Of a stretch of DNA of 51,477 nt, positions 30,441-39,364 are shown in pieces. The notes under the pieces are model-generated. The model was not told the origin of the DNA. It searched no databases and saw only the letters and a program-made list of their open reading frames with translations. The position numbers and the translations under genes were made by a program. The first letter of the stretch is position 1; every line of letters begins with the position of its first letter. Source of the stretch: Bacteroidota bacterium (GTDB taxonomy: Bacteria > Bacteroidota > Rhodothermia > JANXDC01); assembly GCA_025998875.1 (NCBI GenBank), contig AP024675.1, positions 1,127,501 through 1,178,977 on the forward strand, given 5' to 3'.

Positions 30441-30899
30441 GTGGAACGCCTGTTCTGGAGCCGATATGCCATCCCTTCCTGGTCGCGGGCCTGGCGCAGT
30501 GCTGCGGAGCGGGCGCTGCGCTGGCTGGGGCCGGCGGGTATGCTGTTTGTGCTGGGATGGGCGTTGGAGGCGCGAATAGAGAAGCCCCTCTGGATTCTGT
30601 TGCTTCTGCTTCCCCCGCTTGTGGGGGGCCTAAGCGCCTGGTGGGAGCTTCTGCGCCGCCCGGCCCGGCTGCGTGTGCGTCCGGGTTGGATGGCTCTCGA
30701 TCGCCAGTGGGATCTGTTGCGCCGCAGGGATAGTCGATTCCGGCGCCTTGTGGGCGTCCGCGAGGGGGCCGAGGGAGAGCTACTCGTATACCTGGAGGGA
30801 GGGGATCAAGAGGTCCTCTATCCGGAGGACTGGCCCGGATGGCGGATGCTGGTGGGCGTGCTCCGACGCTCAGTCCACCTGCGGCCAACGGGCTACTGA
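30441..30899 (+). CDS. Small predicted membrane protein of unknown function
   Basis: The frame is open from a GTG at 30399, with another GTG at 30441 (152 residues from there). No start has a convincing ribosome site. The product has two hydrophobic segments (AGMLFVLGWAL and PLWILLLLLPPLVGG) followed by a basic, strand-rich C-terminal part with tryptophans. Two helices plus a small cytoplasmic domain is a common layout, but I recognise no family. A perfect TATTTTTG box at 30430-30437 lies immediately before the GTG at 30441; if used, the mRNA would be nearly leaderless or the start lies downstream, for instance at ATG 30540. The 3' end overlaps the convergent usher-like gene by 7 nt. Confidence 0.5.
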   Translation: MERLFWSRYAIPSWSRAWRSAAERALRWLGPAGMLFVLGWALEARIEKPLWILLLLLPPLVGGLSAWWELLRRPARLRVRPGWMALDRQWDLLRRRDSRFRRLVGVREGAEGELLVYLEGGDQEVLYPEDWPGWRMLVGVLRRSVHLRPTGY

Positions 30900-33800
30900 A
30901 CGCTGCGGTACAGGGGTTGCCAGGATCCCATGCCCACAGGAATCAGGTAGGCCGTTGAGATGCCGATTCCGGATCGGGCCTTCTCCAGAAGGTGCTCGGC
31001 CTGTTGGCGCTCAGGAAGGGGCTCGGTGAGCACCACGTAGAGGCCCTTTTGAGGGCGGATGTCCACTGCACAGCGCACCCCAAGAGCCCGACCCGCGCGC
31101 TCGGCCAGCGCGCGGGCCGATTCGAGCCGCCGGAAGGCGCCCAGCGCCACGGAGAATCCGTAGACCATCTGGGCCCGTTCAAGCCGGATACCAAAAGCCT
31201 CCAGGGCGTGATCCCGTAGCGTACGCAGGCCGGCTTCCAGCTCCTGCCGGGACCAGAGCGTATCGGTCCAGACCACATACAGGCCGACCTCCGGTCGGGG
31301 CACAACATACAGCCGGCCCGGCCAGTACATACGGATGCTCTCCTGATGGCGTCGGGCCGCTTCCGGGGTGCGGAAGGAGCCCAGCTGGATGACAAAGGGC
31401 TCCCCTTCGAGTTCCCGACGGGGTTGTCCTTCCTGCTCGGAGGCCGCCAGCGGGCGGTTTTCGGGTCGCTGCAGGTCTTGTAGCACCACGTCCACGGTCA
31501 GGAGCTCCCGCTCTGCCGGGTTCAGCTGGAAACGGATGGGCTCTGGATCCCGGATGCCGAGCCAGCTCAGCTGCTCCGCATCCGGCTTTAACTCATAGGT
31601 GCCCCGGGGCAGGCCCTCCAGGTACAGGTACCCATCGTGGAAGGTGGTCACGGTTTGCTGGAAATCACCCTCCAGCCGGCGCACGTGCACGATAAGCCCG
31701 GGCAGGGTGCGCCTCCGGCCATCGCGCTCCAACCAGACCTGCCCCTGCAGGATGGCTGTCGGCTGAAAAGGAATGCGAACGGGAAGCAGTACCTCGGGCA
31801 GGGGCACAAGGGCTGTATCCCCGGAGGGCCGGTAATGGGGCAGGCCGGGACTGACGGCTTCAATCCGGTAGACCGTATACGGAGCAAGCCCCTTAATCAG
31901 CGGATCGGAGCGCACCTGCTGGCCATGAAGCCGAAGCTGGATCTGCAGATCGTCAACCAGTGCTTCGTCCCGGTCCCGGCGGCCATTGCTGTTTTCGTCC
32001 TGAAAGCCCTCTATTCGGAATCCGCCTCCCCCCACGCTCTCCCCCAGCCAGATCCCGGATCCCGGCATCCAGGCAAAGGAGCCAGAGAGGCTCATTTGCA
32101 TGTGGTTCCACTGCCGCAGGGTGCTGGCGTTGTTCTGGGCCTGCGCCCAGAGGCGGGCTATGGAGCCGAGGGGGAGGGCCAGCTGTAGCCCTGCCTGCCA
32201 GGTCCGGGTACCGGGCAGGCGCCCCAGATAGGCGTATATCTGTCCGGAGCGCAACATGGAAAAACCAAGTTGCAGCCGCCAGGATTCTACAGTCCGCTCG
32301 GATACGTTGTAGCGCACCTGGCCAGAAAGTTGCAGGCTCCGGAAGGCGTGCAGGAATACTTGGCCCTCCAGCGAGCGGCCGAAAAGCCCACCCGATAGGG
32401 GCCATCGTCTTCGTTCCTGGTAGAAGAACTGCCCCGAAAGGCCGGGAAGGCTTATGAACAGGCCCGGACTGGCCAGCACGTAACCCTGCTGGGAAAAGTG
32501 CACATACGAGGCCGCCGCGCGGGGGCTGAGGTTCACCCGGCCCAGCCGAAACGGAAAAGAGGCCAAAAGCGAAGCATACCGCTGCTCCAGCCGGGTGGGA
32601 TACGGCCAGGAGCGCAGGTCCCGCTGAGCGAGCAGGCTCAGGTTGCCTCCGCGGGAGGAGTTCACCTGCAGGCTAATCAGATAGCGAAACGGCCAGAGGA
32701 CCTCGGCCTGCAGGGCGCCGTAGGCGCCAAGTCCGGCCCCCAGCGCGCCCCAATAGGCGCGGGAAAGCGGGGCTCCATCCGGAGTCCAGCTCTGCACTCC
32801 GCCGGCCTGCAGGGTGAGATCGGGCAGGAGGCCGAAGGCGACCCGCCCCCCGAGGAGGCGTTCTGAGCCCGACAGGCGTTCCCCGGCCCAGAGCTCATAG
32901 CGCAGCGCCCGGAAGGGAACCAGCTGATAGGGGATCGTGCGCCTCCAGCGCTCCTCGATCTGCGTCCCCGTGGGGGTGATCGCCCGGAGTTCCAGCTCAT
33001 TATGGCCAACCAGCAGCGGTATCCGAAGCAGCAGACGGCCATCGTCCGGCACGCGGATTCGGCCCACCAGGACGCGGTTCTGATAGAGCTCGACCAGTGT
33101 GCCCGGAGGCCAGAGCCGTTCTTCGGTGACCCATCCCCGGTTCTGCTCCGGATACGGAGGCTCATTGCGCAGATGGAGGCCGCGCAGTTGCGCCCCCGGA
33201 ATCCAGAAGACGGATGTCTGGCCGATGGTGAGCTGACGCATCCAGGGGTTTGTGCCGATCCAGCGCCACTGCCAGCCGGAGAGGACGGGCTCGATCACGG
33301 CTCCGTAGCTGCCGTAGAGTATTCCCTCTAGATCCAGCTCGCCTCCGGCAAGAAGCATCCGTGTGCGCCAGCTGATCTGTAGATGCGAGGAGCCCGTAGC
33401 GAATCGCCCCCAGCTCACCGTGTACTGCGTCACCCCAGGGTAGAGCAGTAAACGGGGTATGGACCGGGCGGCTTCTTGTTGCGGCAGCACAGCTGTCCAG
33501 TTTAATTCCCTCTCTTGCAGTCCCGCGGCCTGCGCCCTCAGGAAGACGGGCGGCTGTGGGCCCAGGGGGATGAAGTGCAACCGCAGGCGAGCCGTATCGA
33601 GCTGTATGCGGGCCTCAAGCAGGGCCTCCAGCGCCGCCGTGGGGGCGAACACCTCCTCGGCTTTCCGGATCCAGGACCCGAAGGGGGCCAGATCCAGCAA
33701 ACCGCGCCAGGTCTCCGCGCGCCTGCGATCCGGATCCAGACAGAAACGGTAGCGTCGTTCGCCCACCCACCCGCACCAGCTGCCCTCCGGCGTCTGTGCG

Positions 33801-33994
33801 GTGGAAATGCCGAGCGCCTCCAGGAATTCCCTGACCGGCAGGTAGAGCTTGGCCCCCTCCAGCAGGGCTATCAGCACCGGCGCCTCCCCTCCGGGCACCT
33901 CCAGCTCCAGGGGTACTTCCTGGGGCGGGGAGGGGTGCTGTCCCCGGCCCTGAAGGGCAAAAAGCAGCCATAGCAGGCAGGCGAGGATCCTCAT
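30893..33994 (-). CDS. Usher-like outer-membrane protein with SdrD-like motif and two C-terminal SPOR repeats
   Basis: The 1033-residue protein starts with a signal peptide (LLWLLFALQG). Residues 25-110 hold a small domain with LYLPVREFLEALG. Around residues 298-350 lies a segment strongly like the usher middle/plug domain: VELYQNRVLVGRIRVPDDG, IPLLVGHNELEL and PTGTQIEER. Residues 350-650 are amphipathic strands consistent with a large barrel. Then FQDENSNGRRDRDE (Asp666 to Glu677) is a SdrD-type calcium motif, followed by carboxypeptidase-regulatory-like beta domains. Two SPOR-like repeats (about 866-932 and 944-1018, each with a GSF or GAF motif and a GLYVV strand) end the protein. Ushers thread fimbrial subunits across the outer membrane; SPOR domains bind glycan strands stripped of peptides. 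The start overlaps the chaperone stop by 4 nt. Confidence 0.7.
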   Translation of the reverse strand: MRILACLLWLLFALQGRGQHPSPPQEVPLELEVPGGEAPVLIALLEGAKLYLPVREFLEALGISTAQTPEGSWCGWVGERRYRFCLDPDRRRAETWRGLLDLAPFGSWIRKAEEVFAPTAALEALLEARIQLDTARLRLHFIPLGPQPPVFLRAQAAGLQERELNWTAVLPQQEAARSIPRLLLYPGVTQYTVSWGRFATGSSHLQISWRTRMLLAGGELDLEGILYGSYGAVIEPVLSGWQWRWIGTNPWMRQLTIGQTSVFWIPGAQLRGLHLRNEPPYPEQNRGWVTEERLWPPGTLVELYQNRVLVGRIRVPDDGRLLLRIPLLVGHNELELRAITPTGTQIEERWRRTIPYQLVPFRALRYELWAGERLSGSERLLGGRVAFGLLPDLTLQAGGVQSWTPDGAPLSRAYWGALGAGLGAYGALQAEVLWPFRYLISLQVNSSRGGNLSLLAQRDLRSWPYPTRLEQRYASLLASFPFRLGRVNLSPRAAASYVHFSQQGYVLASPGLFISLPGLSGQFFYQERRRWPLSGGLFGRSLEGQVFLHAFRSLQLSGQVRYNVSERTVESWRLQLGFSMLRSGQIYAYLGRLPGTRTWQAGLQLALPLGSIARLWAQAQNNASTLRQWNHMQMSLSGSFAWMPGSGIWLGESVGGGGFRIEGFQDENSNGRRDRDEALVDDLQIQLRLHGQQVRSDPLIKGLAPYTVYRIEAVSPGLPHYRPSGDTALVPLPEVLLPVRIPFQPTAILQGQVWLERDGRRRTLPGLIVHVRRLEGDFQQTVTTFHDGYLYLEGLPRGTYELKPDAEQLSWLGIRDPEPIRFQLNPAERELLTVDVVLQDLQRPENRPLAASEQEGQPRRELEGEPFVIQLGSFRTPEAARRHQESIRMYWPGRLYVVPRPEVGLYVVWTDTLWSRQELEAGLRTLRDHALEAFGIRLERAQMVYGFSVALGAFRRLESARALAERAGRALGVRCAVDIRPQKGLYVVLTEPLPERQQAEHLLEKARSGIGISTAYLIPVGMGSWQPLYRSVQ

Positions 33995-34821
33995 CCGGGT
34001 ACGCGCACGGAGAGCCGTTCCTGTACGGGCCGAAACGGGATGAGCTTCGTCGTCTCGAGATCGGGCCGCTCGGGAAGGTATTCGACCTCCAGCGCATAGG
34101 TCCCGGCGGGCAGTTGCCTGCGCGGCAGAAGCCAGATCCGGATCAGGCTCCCGTACAGGGGCACGTATTCCTGTCCCTCAGCAACCAGGGTTCCATCCGG
34201 CCGCCGGAGTCGGTATCGGAGCGTGCCCAGCGCCGGGATCTCGTCCTGCGTGCGCAGACGCAGGCGCACCAGTATGGAATCGGAGCGCGCCCACAGGTCA
34301 ACCCCCTCCAAAAAAGGGCGGGCCTCAACGGAGCCATGCCGTAAGTAGACGACTATGTTCTGCCTGCCGATGATCTGCGCCTGAAGCTCCTGGTCCTCCA
34401 GCGTGGTCAGGGGCCGCGGTGGCGGGGTACCCTGCACGGTAAGGCGCGTCCAGTACACCCCAGGCGGGGCTCCGGCGGGCAACCGGGCAAGCAGGCGCAC
34501 AGTCTGGCTCTGAGCAGGCCCGAGCCGGAAGCGCTGAGGGAAGTAGCGCAGATACGGGGTAAGATTCCAGCGGCCGAAAGGGGATTTCGAGAGTGGATTC
34601 GGATACAGGATCGAAAGCACGCCCAGGGAATCCGTGATCGGATATCCGAATGCAAGCTCGAGCACGACCTCCATGGGCGCATCTCCTCCGTTGCGCACCT
34701 CCAGCACCCCAGCTCCGGTCCGCGCATCCAGCGCCCCGGCCAGGGGATAGACGCTGAGCTGGGCCCAGGCTCCGGAGGCCAGCCCCAGCAGCAGGCCGCA
34801 CATGCCCAGATGACGCATCAT
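33991..34821 (-). CDS. PapD-like periplasmic pilus-assembly chaperone
   Basis: The 276-residue protein has a signal peptide (MCGLLLGLASGAWAQ) and then a beta-rich N-terminal domain of the chaperone type: LSVYPLAGALDA, VLEVRNGGDAPMEVVLEL and RFRLGPAQSQTVRLLARLP. This order, including the N-glycine turn and the P-x-Q-S-Q-T-V-R-L strand, is that of PapD-like two-Ig-domain chaperones. A second strand-rich domain follows. Such chaperones complete the fold of subunits by donor-strand complementation. Start codons at 34821 and 34818 are tandem ATGs behind GGAGGA. An upstream TTG at 34875 is unlikely because the intergenic hairpin would be coding. It is followed by the usher-like gene with a 4-nt overlap. 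Confidence 0.7.
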   Translation of the reverse strand: MMRHLGMCGLLLGLASGAWAQLSVYPLAGALDARTGAGVLEVRNGGDAPMEVVLELAFGYPITDSLGVLSILYPNPLSKSPFGRWNLTPYLRYFPQRFRLGPAQSQTVRLLARLPAGAPPGVYWTRLTVQGTPPPRPLTTLEDQELQAQIIGRQNIVVYLRHGSVEARPFLEGVDLWARSDSILVRLRLRTQDEIPALGTLRYRLRRPDGTLVAEGQEYVPLYGSLIRIWLLPRRQLPAGTYALEVEYLPERPDLETTKLIPFRPVQERLSVRVPG

Positions 34822-34841
34822 CCTGTCCTCCGTATACAAAC

Positions 34842-34869
34842 GCGAAACCCGCCCTGCGGCGGGTTTCGC
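34842..34869 (-). promoter_or_regulatory. Perfect intercistronic hairpin between subunit and chaperone genes
   Basis: A 12-bp perfect stem (GCGAAACCCGCC with GGCGGGTTTCGC) and a 4-nt loop lie between the subunit stop (34897) and the chaperone start (34821). On the minus strand the stem is followed by GTTTGTAT, not a full T-tract. It is better explained as a partial terminator or 3' mRNA stabiliser than as a complete terminator. Confidence 0.8.
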
Positions 34870-34896
34870 ACTCAAAAAACGGACCAGACCGACGGG

Positions 34897-35454
34897 TTAC
34901 GGGATGGTGACCGAGTAGTCGATGGTGAGTATGGGGGTAGAAGAGCCAACCGGACTGGCGGTGTGGTATACCGTCAGAATGCCGCCCAACCATACGAAGA
35001 TGGTATTGGCACCCGTCACGTTGATCTGCCCCCCGTTAGCGGTCGGAAACTGAGGTGGGCTGGTCCCGTAGGAGTTCGAATTGACTCGATACTTAGGTGG
35101 ATAGGGAGTGAAAGAGTACCCGGGTAGGGGACTGTTGTACTGCAGCACAAGCGTAAGGGGACCTGTCCAGGGAGTTGCCGGGCCGGATAAGGTTATCTGA
35201 ATATTGCCTCCCGCTATGTTTGTGTTGTAGGGTTCTGTTGCGGTTCCCCCTGTGGGATAGTAATCCACCGATCCCGAGGTGGGGATCACGATGGGCCCAC
35301 TGGTCGGGCCGAACGGGAAGTTTCCGTGGGTGGTGGAAATGGTAGGGGGAGTAACAGAACCGTTCCCTAGGACCAGGTTAATGGTTCCTCCCTGAGCCCA
35401 TAGGCTATAGCTACAGGCTCCGAGCAGGAGGACGGTGAGCAGGGCGCGCTTCAT
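34897..35454 (-). CDS. Small secreted beta-sandwich protein, candidate fimbrial subunit (DUF4402-like)
   Basis: The 185-residue protein starts at ATG 35454 after GGAGGG; a GTG at 35469 is also in frame. The signal peptide is LLTVLLLGACSYSLWAQ; LGAC could also serve as a lipobox, so lipidation is possible. The mature part is rich in Gly, Pro, Ser, Thr and Tyr. It shows a pattern I associate with DUF4402/spore-coat-U-like subunits: FPFGPTSG, SGSVDYYPTGG, NIQITLSGPAT, a late LGGILTVYH and a final TIDYSVTIP strand. This is weak, pattern-level similarity. Codon use and base composition are visibly AT-richer than the neighbours. Being first in an operon with a chaperone and usher-like gene supports a surface-subunit role. 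Confidence 0.6.
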   Translation of the reverse strand: MKRALLTVLLLGACSYSLWAQGGTINLVLGNGSVTPPTISTTHGNFPFGPTSGPIVIPTSGSVDYYPTGGTATEPYNTNIAGGNIQITLSGPATPWTGPLTLVLQYNSPLPGYSFTPYPPKYRVNSNSYGTSPPQFPTANGGQINVTGANTIFVWLGGILTVYHTASPVGSSTPILTIDYSVTIP

Positions 35455-35524
35455 GGTTTGACCCTCCACATCTGGGTTTACGGATTTTGAGCCCTCTCGG
35501 GCTTTTCTCTTGCTGTGCCCGAAG

Positions 35525-35555
35525 CAAGCTTATAGAGAAGGCCAGAATATGTCAA
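35525..35555 (-). promoter_or_regulatory. Predicted promoter of the subunit-chaperone-usher operon
   Basis: Minus strand: TTG (35555-35553), exactly 20 nt, TAAGCTTG (35532-35525), one mismatch from TAnnTTTG. The same stretch also reads TTGACA and TATAAG, a sigma-70-like pair with a short 15-nt spacer. The leader would be about 60 nt and contains a small AGCCC/GGGCT stem at 35490-35503. Confidence 0.55.
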
Positions 35556-35591
35556 GATGAGTTTTTCTTTTTGATGATGAAAAGGTAGCCT

Positions 35592-35855
35592 TCAATGTCG
35601 GTGTATCCACTTCCATACGGTTGGGATAGCCACTCCCAGGTGTCGGGCGATGGCCGTTACATTCCATCCCTGCTGGTACAGATCTCGGGCCCGGTGTTTG
35701 AGCGTGGGGGGGTGGTTCGGGCGTTTGGCGTCCGGCAGGAAGCGGTGGTAGCAGCGCCGGCAAAGATAGGACTGTCGGCCCTGTACGGAGCCGTTTTTGA
35801 CCACGCGGTAGCTGGCGCAGTGCGGGCAGGTGGGTCTGCGGAGGGTCTCTTCCAT
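35592..35855 (-). CDS. IS1 InsA-like zinc-ribbon/helix-turn-helix protein (transposase remnant or domesticated regulator)
   Basis: The 87-residue protein matches the layout and length of IS1 InsA (91 residues). An N-terminal zinc ribbon has CPHCASYRVVKNG and YLCRRCYHRF (four cysteines in two CxxC pairs), and a helix-turn-helix follows (DLYQQGWNVTAIARHLGVAIPTVWKWI). In IS1, InsA binds the terminal repeats and a -1 frameshift extends it into InsB, the DDE transposase. Here only about 60-140 AT-rich nt remain before the subunit promoter, and the -1 frame shows no InsB-like sequence. So this is either a remnant or an independent DNA-binding protein. It lies directly upstream of the subunit operon in the same orientation. 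Confidence 0.72.
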   Translation of the reverse strand: MEETLRRPTCPHCASYRVVKNGSVQGRQSYLCRRCYHRFLPDAKRPNHPPTLKHRARDLYQQGWNVTAIARHLGVAIPTVWKWIHRH

Positions 35856-36008
35856 CGGGAGCGGCTTTTCTCTCCGAGCTAAACAGCAAAGCTCAAGGAT
35901 CATTCCGGCGCCCGATGCGGCCGTCTGGCGCTTCGGGGGCCTCTTTTCTGGCGGATCGTTCTCACAGGGAGACCCAGTTCGGGTTTCAGCAAGAGGGTTC
36001 ATCCTGCG

Positions 36009-36016
36009 TACCTTAG
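36009..36016 (+). promoter_or_regulatory. Candidate -7 element of the thiolase gene
   Basis: TACCTTAG differs from TAnnTTTG at one fixed position, 25 nt before the thiolase ATG. TTTC lies 21 nt further upstream in place of TTTG. The rest of 35856-36041 holds no gene I can support. Confidence 0.35.
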
Positions 36017-36041
36017 CGGAGCATTTGCACGAGGACAGGCC

Positions 36042-37253
36042 ATGGCGGAGGTGCCCGTTATCGTCGATGCGCTGCGCACGCCGATTGGTCGCTACGGGGG
36101 GGCGCTTGCCCGCGTACGGCCCGATGATCTGGCCGCGCACGTGCTGCGCGCGCTCCTGGACCGGCATCCGGAGCTGGATCCGGGCCAGATCGAAGATGTC
36201 GTGCTGGGTTGTACAAACCAGGCCGGGGAGGATAATCGCAACGTGGCCCGCATGGCCGCCCTGCTTGCCGGGCTTCCGGAGAGCGTGGCCGGGGTGACGG
36301 TCAACCGGCTCTGTGCCTCGGGTCTGGAGGCTGTGGCCGTTGCGGCCCGGGCCATTCAGGCCGGGGAGGGGGATGTGTTTCTGGCCGGGGGGGTGGAGAG
36401 CATGAGCCGCGCCCCGTTTGTGATTCCGAAGCCGGAGGAGCCCTTCGGCCGCCGCATGGAGATCTTCGATACCACGATCGGGTGGCGCTTCGTCAACCCC
36501 CGGCTTGCGGCTCGGTATTATCCCTACTCCATGGGGGAGACGGCGGAGATCGTGGCCGAACGCTATCGAATCAGTCGGGAGGAGCAGGATCGTTTCGCTT
36601 ACGAGAGCCAGATGCGCGCCCGGGCTGCTATGGAGGCGGGTCGGTTTCGGGAGGAGATCGTGCCCGTCCCTGTTCCGGGTTTGCGGGGAGAGACCGTGCT
36701 GGTGGATCAGGATGAGCATCCGCGTCCGGATACCACGCTGGAGAAGCTGGCCCGGTTGCGGCCCGCCTTTCGGGAGGGGGGGACGGTAACGGCCGGCAAT
36801 TCGAGCGGGATCAACGACGGAGCGGCCGCGTTGCTGGTGATGTCGCTTTCTGCTGCGCGCAGGCTGGGGCTGCGTCCCTGGGCGCGCATTCTGGGATCGG
36901 CCGTTGTGGGCGTGCACCCGGACGTGATGGGCATTGGGCCGGTTCCGGCCACGCGCAAGCTGCTCGGCCGGCTGGGCGTGCGGCTGGAGGATATCGATCT
37001 GATCGAGCTCAACGAGGCCTTCGCCGCCCAGGTGCTGGCCTGTGTGCGCGAGCTGGGGCTGGATATGGCCAGGCTCAACGTAAACGGCGGGGCCATCGCC
37101 CTGGGCCATCCGCTGGGGGCCACGGGAGCGCGGCTCCTGGTGACCCTGCTCTATGAGCTGCGTCGCCGGCCGGAAGCCCGGCTGGGGCTGGTGACCCTGT
37201 GTGTGGGGGTGGGGCAGGGTATGGCCATGCTCGTGGAGAAGCTCACCGATTAG
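36042..37253 (+). CDS. Acetyl-CoA acyltransferase (thiolase), PcaF/FadA-like
   Basis: The 403-residue protein is a full-length thiolase. The acyl-accepting nucleophile is Cys91 ([12 protein letters not shown]). The catalytic His356 ([11 protein letters not shown]) and the second Cys387 (TLCVGVGQG) are present, as is the NEAFA motif. It cleaves or forms 3-oxoacyl-CoA with CoA in the cytoplasm. The [13 protein letters not shown] sequence and about 400-residue length resemble 3-oxoadipyl-CoA thiolases (PcaF/PaaJ) as well as general acetyl-CoA acetyltransferases; no paa or pca genes are adjacent, so specificity is open. It lies 143 nt upstream of acetyl-CoA synthetase on the same strand. Confidence 0.92.
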
Positions 37254-37396
37254 GTTGAGCGCTCCACCCTCTTCTGCGGTGGTCCGGGCATGCCGCTCCG
37301 ATCCGGACAAACTGCCGGCCCACAGGGGGCGTGCTGGCGTGGGGGGCGGAGGGTATGTATCTTCCTCGGAGAAACGGGGAAGAGGAGCTCGGGCCT

Positions 37397-39364
37397 ATGA
37401 GCCAGGATCAGATCACAAGCCTGCTACAGGAGGATCGCCTGTTCTATCCGCCCCGGGACTTTCAGGAACAGGCGCACATTCGGAGCCTGGAGCAGTATCG
37501 GGCTCTGTATGCGCGGTCTCTGGAAGATCCGGAGGGTTTCTGGGCCGAGATGGCCTCCGCACTGCACTGGTTTCGGCGCTGGGATCGGGTGCTCCAGTGG
37601 GATCCCCCGCAGGCGCAGTGGTTCCTGGGCGGGCAGACCAATCTCTGTTACAACTGTGTAGACCGGCATCTGCAGAGCTGGCGCCGCAACAAGGCCGCCC
37701 TCATCTGGGAGGGCGAACCCGGCGAAGAGCGCGTGCTCACGTATCAGGACCTGTACCGGGAGGTGAGCCGATTTGCCAACGTGCTTCGCTCGCTGGGGGT
37801 CGGCAAAGGGGATCGGGTGGCCATTTACATGCCCCTGGTGCCCGAAGCCGTGGTGGCCATGCTCGCCTGCGCGCGCATCGGAGCCGTGCATTCGGTGGTT
37901 TTCGGGGGATTTTCCTCCGAGGCGCTCCGGGATCGGGTCAACGACGCCGGGGCCCGTCTGATCGTAACGGCCGATGGGGGCTGGCGTCGGGGGCGGATCG
38001 TGCCGTTGAAGGACTACGTCGATGAGGCCCTCCGTCGAGGTGCGCCCACCGTGGAGCATGTTGTCGTCCTGCGCCGCACGCATCAGGAGGTCTCCTGGGA
38101 GCCCGGCCGAGACCATTGGTGGGATGAGCTCATGGCCGCCGCTTCGGCCTCCTGTCCGGCCGAGCCGCTGGATAGCGAGCATCCCCTCTTTATTCTGTAC
38201 ACCTCGGGCACCACGGGCAAGCCCAAGGGCGTCGTGCACACCACGGGGGGCTACATGGTCTATACGGCCACCACGGCCCGATATGTCTTCGATCTCCGGG
38301 AGGAGGACACCTACTGGTGCACGGCGGATATCGGCTGGATCACGGGCCATTCCTACGTGGTCTACGGGATTCTGGCCAACGGAGCTACGAGCCTCATCTA
38401 CGAGGGGGCGCCGGACTGGCCCGATCCGGGTCGGTTCTGGTCCATCGTGGAAAAGTATCGGGTTTCTATTTTCTACACGGCTCCGACGGCCATCCGGGCC
38501 TTTATCCGCTGGGGAGAGGCCTATCCGCGCCGCTATGATCTATCGAGCCTGCGCCTGCTGGGTACGGTGGGGGAGCCGATTAATCCCGAGGCCTGGATGT
38601 GGTATTACCGCGTCATCGGGGGCGGGCGCTGTCCGATCGTGGACACCTGGTGGCAGACCGAAACCGGCGGGATCATGATCAGTCCCCTGCCGGGAGCGAC
38701 TCCGCTGGTGCCCGGATCCTGTACGCTTCCGTTTTTCGGCATCGAGGCCGACGTGGTCGACCGCGAGGGGCGCAGCCTGCCCCCCAACACGGGAGGATTT
38801 CTCGTCATCCGTCGTCCCTGGCCGGGTATGATGCGCACGATTTACGGGGATGAAGCCCGCTACCGGCGCCAGTACTGGGAGGAGATCCCGGGTCTGTACT
38901 TTTCCGGTGACGGAGCCCGGCGCGATGAGCGGGGCTATTTCTGGGTGATGGGCCGGGTCGACGACGTCATCAACACCAGCGGGCACCGGCTGGGGACCAT
39001 GGAGATCGAGTCCGCGCTGGTGAGCCATGCGGCCGTGGCCGAAGCGGCCGTGGTGGGGCGTCCGGATCCGGTTGTGGGAACGGCCATCGTGGCCTTTGTC
39101 GTGCTCCGGCCGGGGGCAGACCCCTCGCCGAAGCTCAAAGAGGCGCTGCGCGAGCATGTGGCCCAGCAGATCGGTCCCATCGCCCGGCCTCAGGAGATCA
39201 TCTTCACCGACGGGTTGCCCAAGACGCGTTCCGGCAAGATCATGCGCCGGCTGTTGCGTCAGCTCGCCTCCGGAGAGGAGCGCCTGGGGGACATGACCAC
39301 GCTCGAAAGCGCGGAGGTCATTGAGCGCCTGCGGGCGCAGATGGGCAGCGAGGAGGAGGAGTAA
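37397..39364 (+). CDS. acs: Acetyl-CoA synthetase (AMP-forming)
   Basis: The 655-residue protein starts at ATG 37397 after GAGGAG, and its length matches Acs (about 650). ANL-superfamily motifs are P-loop [18 protein letters not shown], the A5 motif WWQTETGG, the hinge region [23 protein letters not shown], and the acetylatable A10 lysine in [10 protein letters not shown]. The WQTETGG and HTTGGYM blocks are typical of acetate-activating enzymes, including the tryptophan that limits acyl size. It converts acetate, ATP and CoA to acetyl-CoA. A partial TATCTT box sits at 37358. The thiolase upstream could share the acetyl-CoA pool. Confidence 0.95.

Follow-up and report, generated by a model that had tools for sequence, protein, structure and literature searches.

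Beside a fimbria-like operon in this member of the Bacteroidota stands a single gene of the InsA type, and the question it raises is whether an InsA-like protein without InsB has been kept as a regulator of its neighbours or is what remains of an insertion sequence (IS). We address this question in the window, by which we mean the whole stretch of 51,477 nucleotides that was analysed, and by comparison with other genomes, plasmids and phages. The reading that we favour, with a probability of roughly 70%, is that the ORF is an orphan fragment, the InsA part, of an IS1-family element.

The locus and its product

The features of the locus are collected in Table 1. The 87-codon frame is intact and shares its strand with the fimbria-like operon, with 137 bp (35455-35591) between its stop and the ATG of the pilin-like gene; acs, on the opposite strand, is 1.5 kb away from its start. 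The names pilin-like, chaperone-like and usher-like are readings from the sequence, made in the earlier note and in our follow-up: the pilin-like and chaperone-like products had no match in Pfam or NCBIfam, and in the usher-like protein SPOR alone scored above its cut-off. The three genes together (30893-35469, minus strand) are conserved in a congener and possibly encode a surface assembly system not yet described. The stretch that separates the ORF from the pilin-like gene also holds a terminator-like hairpin on the plus strand (35489-35504; two were found where 0.8 are expected), and no plus-strand gene was recognised as terminating there.

Table 1. Position, strand and source of evidence for features at the InsA-type locus
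Feature	Position	Strand	Evidence or remark
InsA-type ORF (C4 zinc ribbon and HTH), orphan, 87 aa	35592-35855	minus	ORF calls, domain profiles, AlphaFold
Pilin-like subunit gene, gene 1 of the fimbria-like operon	34897-35469	minus	also in congener G001, there without the ORF
Chaperone-like gene, same fimbria-like operon	33991-34875	minus	without Pfam match
Usher-like large protein, SPOR repeats at C-terminus	30893-33994	minus	Pfam
Thiolase, divergent from the InsA-type ORF	36042-37253	plus	
Acetyl-CoA synthetase (acs), strand as thiolase	37331-39364	plus	
FIIKKKN, +1 frame directly past the ORF stop	35561-35581	minus	candidate scrap of InsB start
GGCTTTTCTCT, left copy of 11-bp direct repeat, candidate target-site duplication	35500-35510	plus	
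GGCTTTTCTCT, right copy of 11-bp direct repeat	35863-35873	plus	

The earlier note had described an intact, InsA-like gene of 87 residues with a zinc ribbon and a helix-turn-helix (HTH), and the ORF, its domains and its profile score confirm this description. The zinc ribbon of the product (CPHC...CRRC) is followed by the HTH, and the ORF stops right past the HTH. In Pfam, HTH_23 matched with 34.9 bits, above its cut-off, and Zn_ribbon_InsA with 17.2 bits, below its cut-off of 26.1. The NCBIfam model of the IS1/IS1595 Zn domain (NF050000) was passed with 42 bits against a cut-off of 28, and the NCBIfam IS1 transposase model gave 60 bits against a cut-off of 100, over positions 1-77 of 199; no curated InsA or whole-IS1-transposase model of either collection reached its cut-off. 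An AlphaFold model built on five aligned sequences, with a mean pLDDT of 80, has a beta hairpin at residues 18-32 and three helices. Compared with the PDB by Foldseek, this model stayed without a match at E <= 0.001; HTH proteins, IstA among them, stood high in the ranking. A search of PDB sequences with profile A4 returned mainly short generic zinc-finger and HTH matches.

The product was also scored on three profiles of our own. On the IS1-InsA HMM (21 rows) it reached 77.0 bits, where held-out IS1 members score 63-113, and on the HMM (23 rows) of the solo family, to which we return below, it reached 46.4 bits against 142-172 for held-out members. The IS1595-type HMM (six rows) gave 53.6 bits. 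For the tree, 31 IS loci were translated, and after L105, L207, L110 and L112 had been left out (phage protein, internal stop, short fragments) 21 IS1 and six IS1595-type rows were kept; the IS1 and IS1595 labels were assigned by hand, and L003 and L008, both from genome G003, may be divergent IS1 among the six. The protein resembles IS1 InsA in the order of its C4 zinc ribbon and HTH, in stopping just past the HTH, in its length (IS1 InsA has ~90 residues) and in scoring within the IS1 range, but it differs in being a single copy without InsB, without a frameshift run before the stop and without terminal repeats. The N-terminus of IS1595-type transposases likewise carries a zinc ribbon and HTH, but members of that group, six hand-labelled rows, score 92-125 bits on their own profile.

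As judged from the sequence, the protein resembles InsA far more closely than chance would allow. Long chance frames are frequent at 64% GC, and a chance open frame might be considered on that ground, but it is refuted by the presence of zinc ribbon and HTH in the order of InsA and by the 77-bit profile score, and we regard it as practically dismissed. The open frame is nevertheless weak evidence of function: over six frames the stop frequency is 1.78% per codon, low enough that an open 87-codon stretch is expected by chance in about one case in five (~21%). The GC3 of the ORF is 0.75, and that of 18 neighbouring genes checked is 0.66-0.81.

Copies, InsB and possible traces of a mobile element

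The protein (P0001) is encoded once in its own 2.35-Mb genome. According to the earlier note, this copy would be a simple truncation if the genome held several copies that carry InsB and inverted repeats; what we found is one copy and no InsB. The absence of a transposase partner, as that note had stated it, was borne out by a search for the InsB domain DDE_Tnp_IS1 (PF03400), which matched in neither of two genomes, its own and that of the congener, and which did give matches in the positive controls E. coli and Methanosarcina acetivorans. Three of 60 relatives, the own genome included, matched the protein at E <= 0.001, and the other two matches are multi-copy elements at 27-33% identity. Within the class, matches at E <= 1e-6 were obtained in four of 244 genomes, one of them its own and the other three at 31-33% identity, and no orthologue was found at that threshold among the 243 other genomes.

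Wider searches gave similarly distant matches. A pattern scan of 84,980 species genomes with the protein sequence alone returned no relative, and with alignment A5 a single locus in a cyanobacterial MAG, at 33% identity. In IMG/VR the sequence alone again found no relative, and with A4 identity was at most 48% over short parts (in the best 80 of 122 stretches). Plasmids yielded 37 records, all below 60% identity, the nearest pieces being IS1 transposases (best 38%, Deinococcus), and phages two records with weak matches. None of the genomes, plasmids and IMG/VR sequences searched yielded a complete element whose InsA is similar enough for it to be the parent. In the tree (51 rows) the protein forms a long branch (1.73) outside the solo clade, its placement not being resolved. 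When the earlier note offered a recent IS remnant as its alternative, it was partly right: we too read the ORF best as an IS remnant, but the long branch and the lack of a close relative do not support its being recent, and an insertion hot spot, which the note had also proposed, is likewise not supported.

As a target-site duplication, the exact 11-bp direct repeat that flanks the ORF is no more than suggestive: when the two flanks were shuffled by dinucleotides, 23 of 3000 shuffles shared a word of at least 11, and by ungapped score 51 of 1000 did as well. Terminal inverted repeats, which had not been seen in the first reading either, were not found in the flanks; the best pair (35479-35497 and 35992-36010) was rejected as IS ends, 370 of 1000 shuffles being equal to it. 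A 14-copy IS1-family element in genome G025, of the same class (L004 and 13 further loci), has InsA and InsB in two frames and ends in GGTAGCGG.../...CCGCTACC, starting 74 bp ahead of the insA ATG, and no ends resembling these were seen at the InsA-type ORF. A further candidate for a left end was GGAATGATCC, which lies 51 bp upstream; we rejected it, as it has no GGT terminus, unlike the G025 element.

Before the ORF stop there is no A6C-like slip run (a -1 frameshift site), A-runs being present downstream of the stop only. Past the stop, FIIKKKN fits the first conserved InsB block, a score as high being reached by 34 of 1000 shuffles and by 15 of 1300 pieces of the window, two profiles having been tried for this reading; as a remnant of the InsB start it is possible but unproven, and weakly suggestive. 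No InsB remnant of clear significance was found at the locus. We also asked whether the +1 frame past the stop (TDIEGYLFIIKKKNSS) is what is left of a solo-family C-terminus; it looks good by eye for this reading, which was rejected, with 681 of 1000 shuffles as good.

A single copy that is intact, full length and free of any clearly significant InsB trace would also be expected of a small stand-alone zinc-ribbon/HTH protein, acquired horizontally and with a target of its own, that is not a decayed IS at all. We consider such an origin unlikely, as no close stand-alone relative was found and the nearest proteins by profile are IS1 InsA.

The junction in the congener

The comparison with a congener was made with one genome, G001, the sole congener examined. 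It has the junction of pilin-like gene, thiolase and acs but lacks the InsA-type ORF, and the protein has no match there; thiolase is 82% identical between the two genomes, and acs, in the part that matched, 80%. The gap between the start codons of the pilin-like gene and thiolase is 172 bp in the congener and 587 bp here (~415 bp less). The best single-deletion model for this gap removes 411 bp at 35468-35878 (score 8), and a model bounded by the 11-bp repeat scores -23, the intergenic DNA being hardly alignable and too diverged for the borders to be placed. At the level of sequence comparison the ORF is lineage-specific, and gain and loss both fit two genomes.

The earlier note had raised the possibility that the protein was domesticated as a regulator of the adjacent fimbria-like operon, which as a repressor of these downstream, same-strand genes it would exert by binding 35455-35600. 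The shared strand, the 137 bp to the pilin ATG, the intact frame and the host-like GC3 are all consistent with this proposal, as is the behaviour of IS1, where, in the parts of PMC12428005 drawn on here, InsA is described as being made without a frameshift, alone repressing the IS1 promoter and rivalling InsAB' for both ends, and its over-expression in frameshift-fixed strains as lowering transposition ~600-1000-fold. However, the congener keeps the operon, and thiolase-acs with it, while lacking the ORF and ~415 bp, so that the comparison lends no support to a conserved role of the protein in this operon. Nor did the search for homologues reveal an orthologue beside the same operon, either in the 243 other genomes of the class (E <= 1e-6) or at the operon of the congener. 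A scan of 35380-36100 for promoters of the sigma-70-like type, to which it was limited, found none, and a frame of this length has the chance of being open given above. We therefore regard repression of the fimbria-like operon as very unlikely, and as no InsB, second copy or ends were found, the known role of InsA is without a visible substrate here.

The preferred reading is thus that of an orphan InsA fragment. An IS1-family element would have entered the lineage, or been lost from that of the congener, and its catalytic InsB part and its ends would since have gone; from this we infer arrival by transposition, deletion of InsB and the present lack of a selected role. If still translated, the protein is probably inert, since no IS1 partner or ends for it to repress were found in the genome. 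Against the remnant reading stand the intact frame, the host-like GC3, and the lack of inverted repeats, of a slip run and of a close parent element.

A solo InsA-like family linked to acs

A phylum-wide search with the InsA-type query matched 34 of 392 Bacteroidota genomes, and most of the matches belong to one solo family of ~140 residues, which was defined after being seen. Its members have a zinc ribbon, an HTH and a conserved C-terminal part (~55 aa) ending in ELGDKFMLIKWERFK; they are 50-67% identical to the first row, and NCBIfam IS1 models match them only partly. At E <= 1e-25 the family profile found 30 of the 392 genomes, with one match each, or 29 once G388, an ordinary IS1, is set aside. 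We fetched 32 loci, of which 29 scored above 90 bits, and removal of L062 (from G388) left 28 (L029, L032, L034-L058, and L061-L092 except L062, L089, L091 and L092). L062 is without any of the cluster genes described below, and L089, L091 and L092 are unscored, with no acs marked in their gene order.

In 26 of the 28 loci the gene that follows directly downstream, on the strand of the solo gene, is porin-like, a name given from its sequence and without a Pfam match. A sensor kinase of ~900 aa and a response regulator are each present in 26. All 28 loci have a symporter of the MFS or sodium:solute type, and acs is present in 24, where the stretches reached ~9 kb to each side, so that the missing acs genes may lie beyond. 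Pfam matches in the kinase are HisKA and HATPase_c only; its N-terminal part, from its length and hydrophobic start, may be an SLC5-type symporter by analogy with CrbS/R, which the two-component system of the cluster recalls and which is described, in the parts of PMC5436829 and PMC5715377 drawn on here, as controlling acs.

In the tree the solo clade has support of 100/99 and is nested, with moderate support (92/77, 92/83), among one subgroup of IS1. Of the 139 positions of the solo profile, those up to 127-131 align with the zero frame of this subgroup (L128, L033 and L095), whose zero-frame tail is homologous to the solo C-terminal part. The solo protein therefore seems to correspond to the entire repressor product made without the frameshift rather than to the transposase. 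We note that in these IS1 elements (L128:3001-3525, L033:1498-2022, L095:1213-1737) the zero frame passes the first InsB motif (ELDEMHSYIGxKK), such that what they make without the shift exceeds classical InsA in length. The solo family is likely a domesticated IS1 repressor frame in an acetate-utilisation cluster. No paper title in the open-access literature searched describes an InsA-like regulator of acs, and we found there no paper on a domesticated IS1 InsA repressor, or on Bacteroidetes acs with an IS1 family transposase.

The orphan protein shares with this family its stand-alone zinc ribbon and HTH, its single copy and a nearby acs, and it might regulate the divergent thiolase-acs, whether it was recruited for this independently or is a truncated and very divergent relative of the family. 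The distance of its start from acs, on opposite strands, and the occurrence of acs within ~9 kb in the 24 solo loci, directly divergent in two, fit such a role; the proximity was noticed post hoc, and by rough arithmetic the chance of a random site in 2.35 Mb lying within a few kb of one given gene is some tenths of a percent. However, membership in the family is rejected by its solo-profile score, by the absence of the ~55-aa C-terminal part, which the frames downstream of the ORF match no better than shuffles do, and by its neighbourhood, where of the genes of the solo cluster acs alone is near and a pilin-like gene lies downstream. Its own genome matches the large kinase of the solo cluster only at the kinase end (query 601-895 of 901), with no full match, and the congener keeps thiolase-acs without the ORF. 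We thus judge regulation of thiolase-acs to be very unlikely, and equally so the broader proposal that InsA-type proteins of IS1 were recruited more than once as regulators at acs loci, by the monophyletic solo family and independently by the orphan protein beside thiolase-acs.

Taken by itself, the InsA-type ORF is an ordinary orphan IS fragment. The question whether InsA-like proteins persist without InsB led, however, to a solo family that does, and if this family regulates its cluster, it would show clearly, in bacteria, how the repressor that a transposon encodes for itself can become a host regulator.
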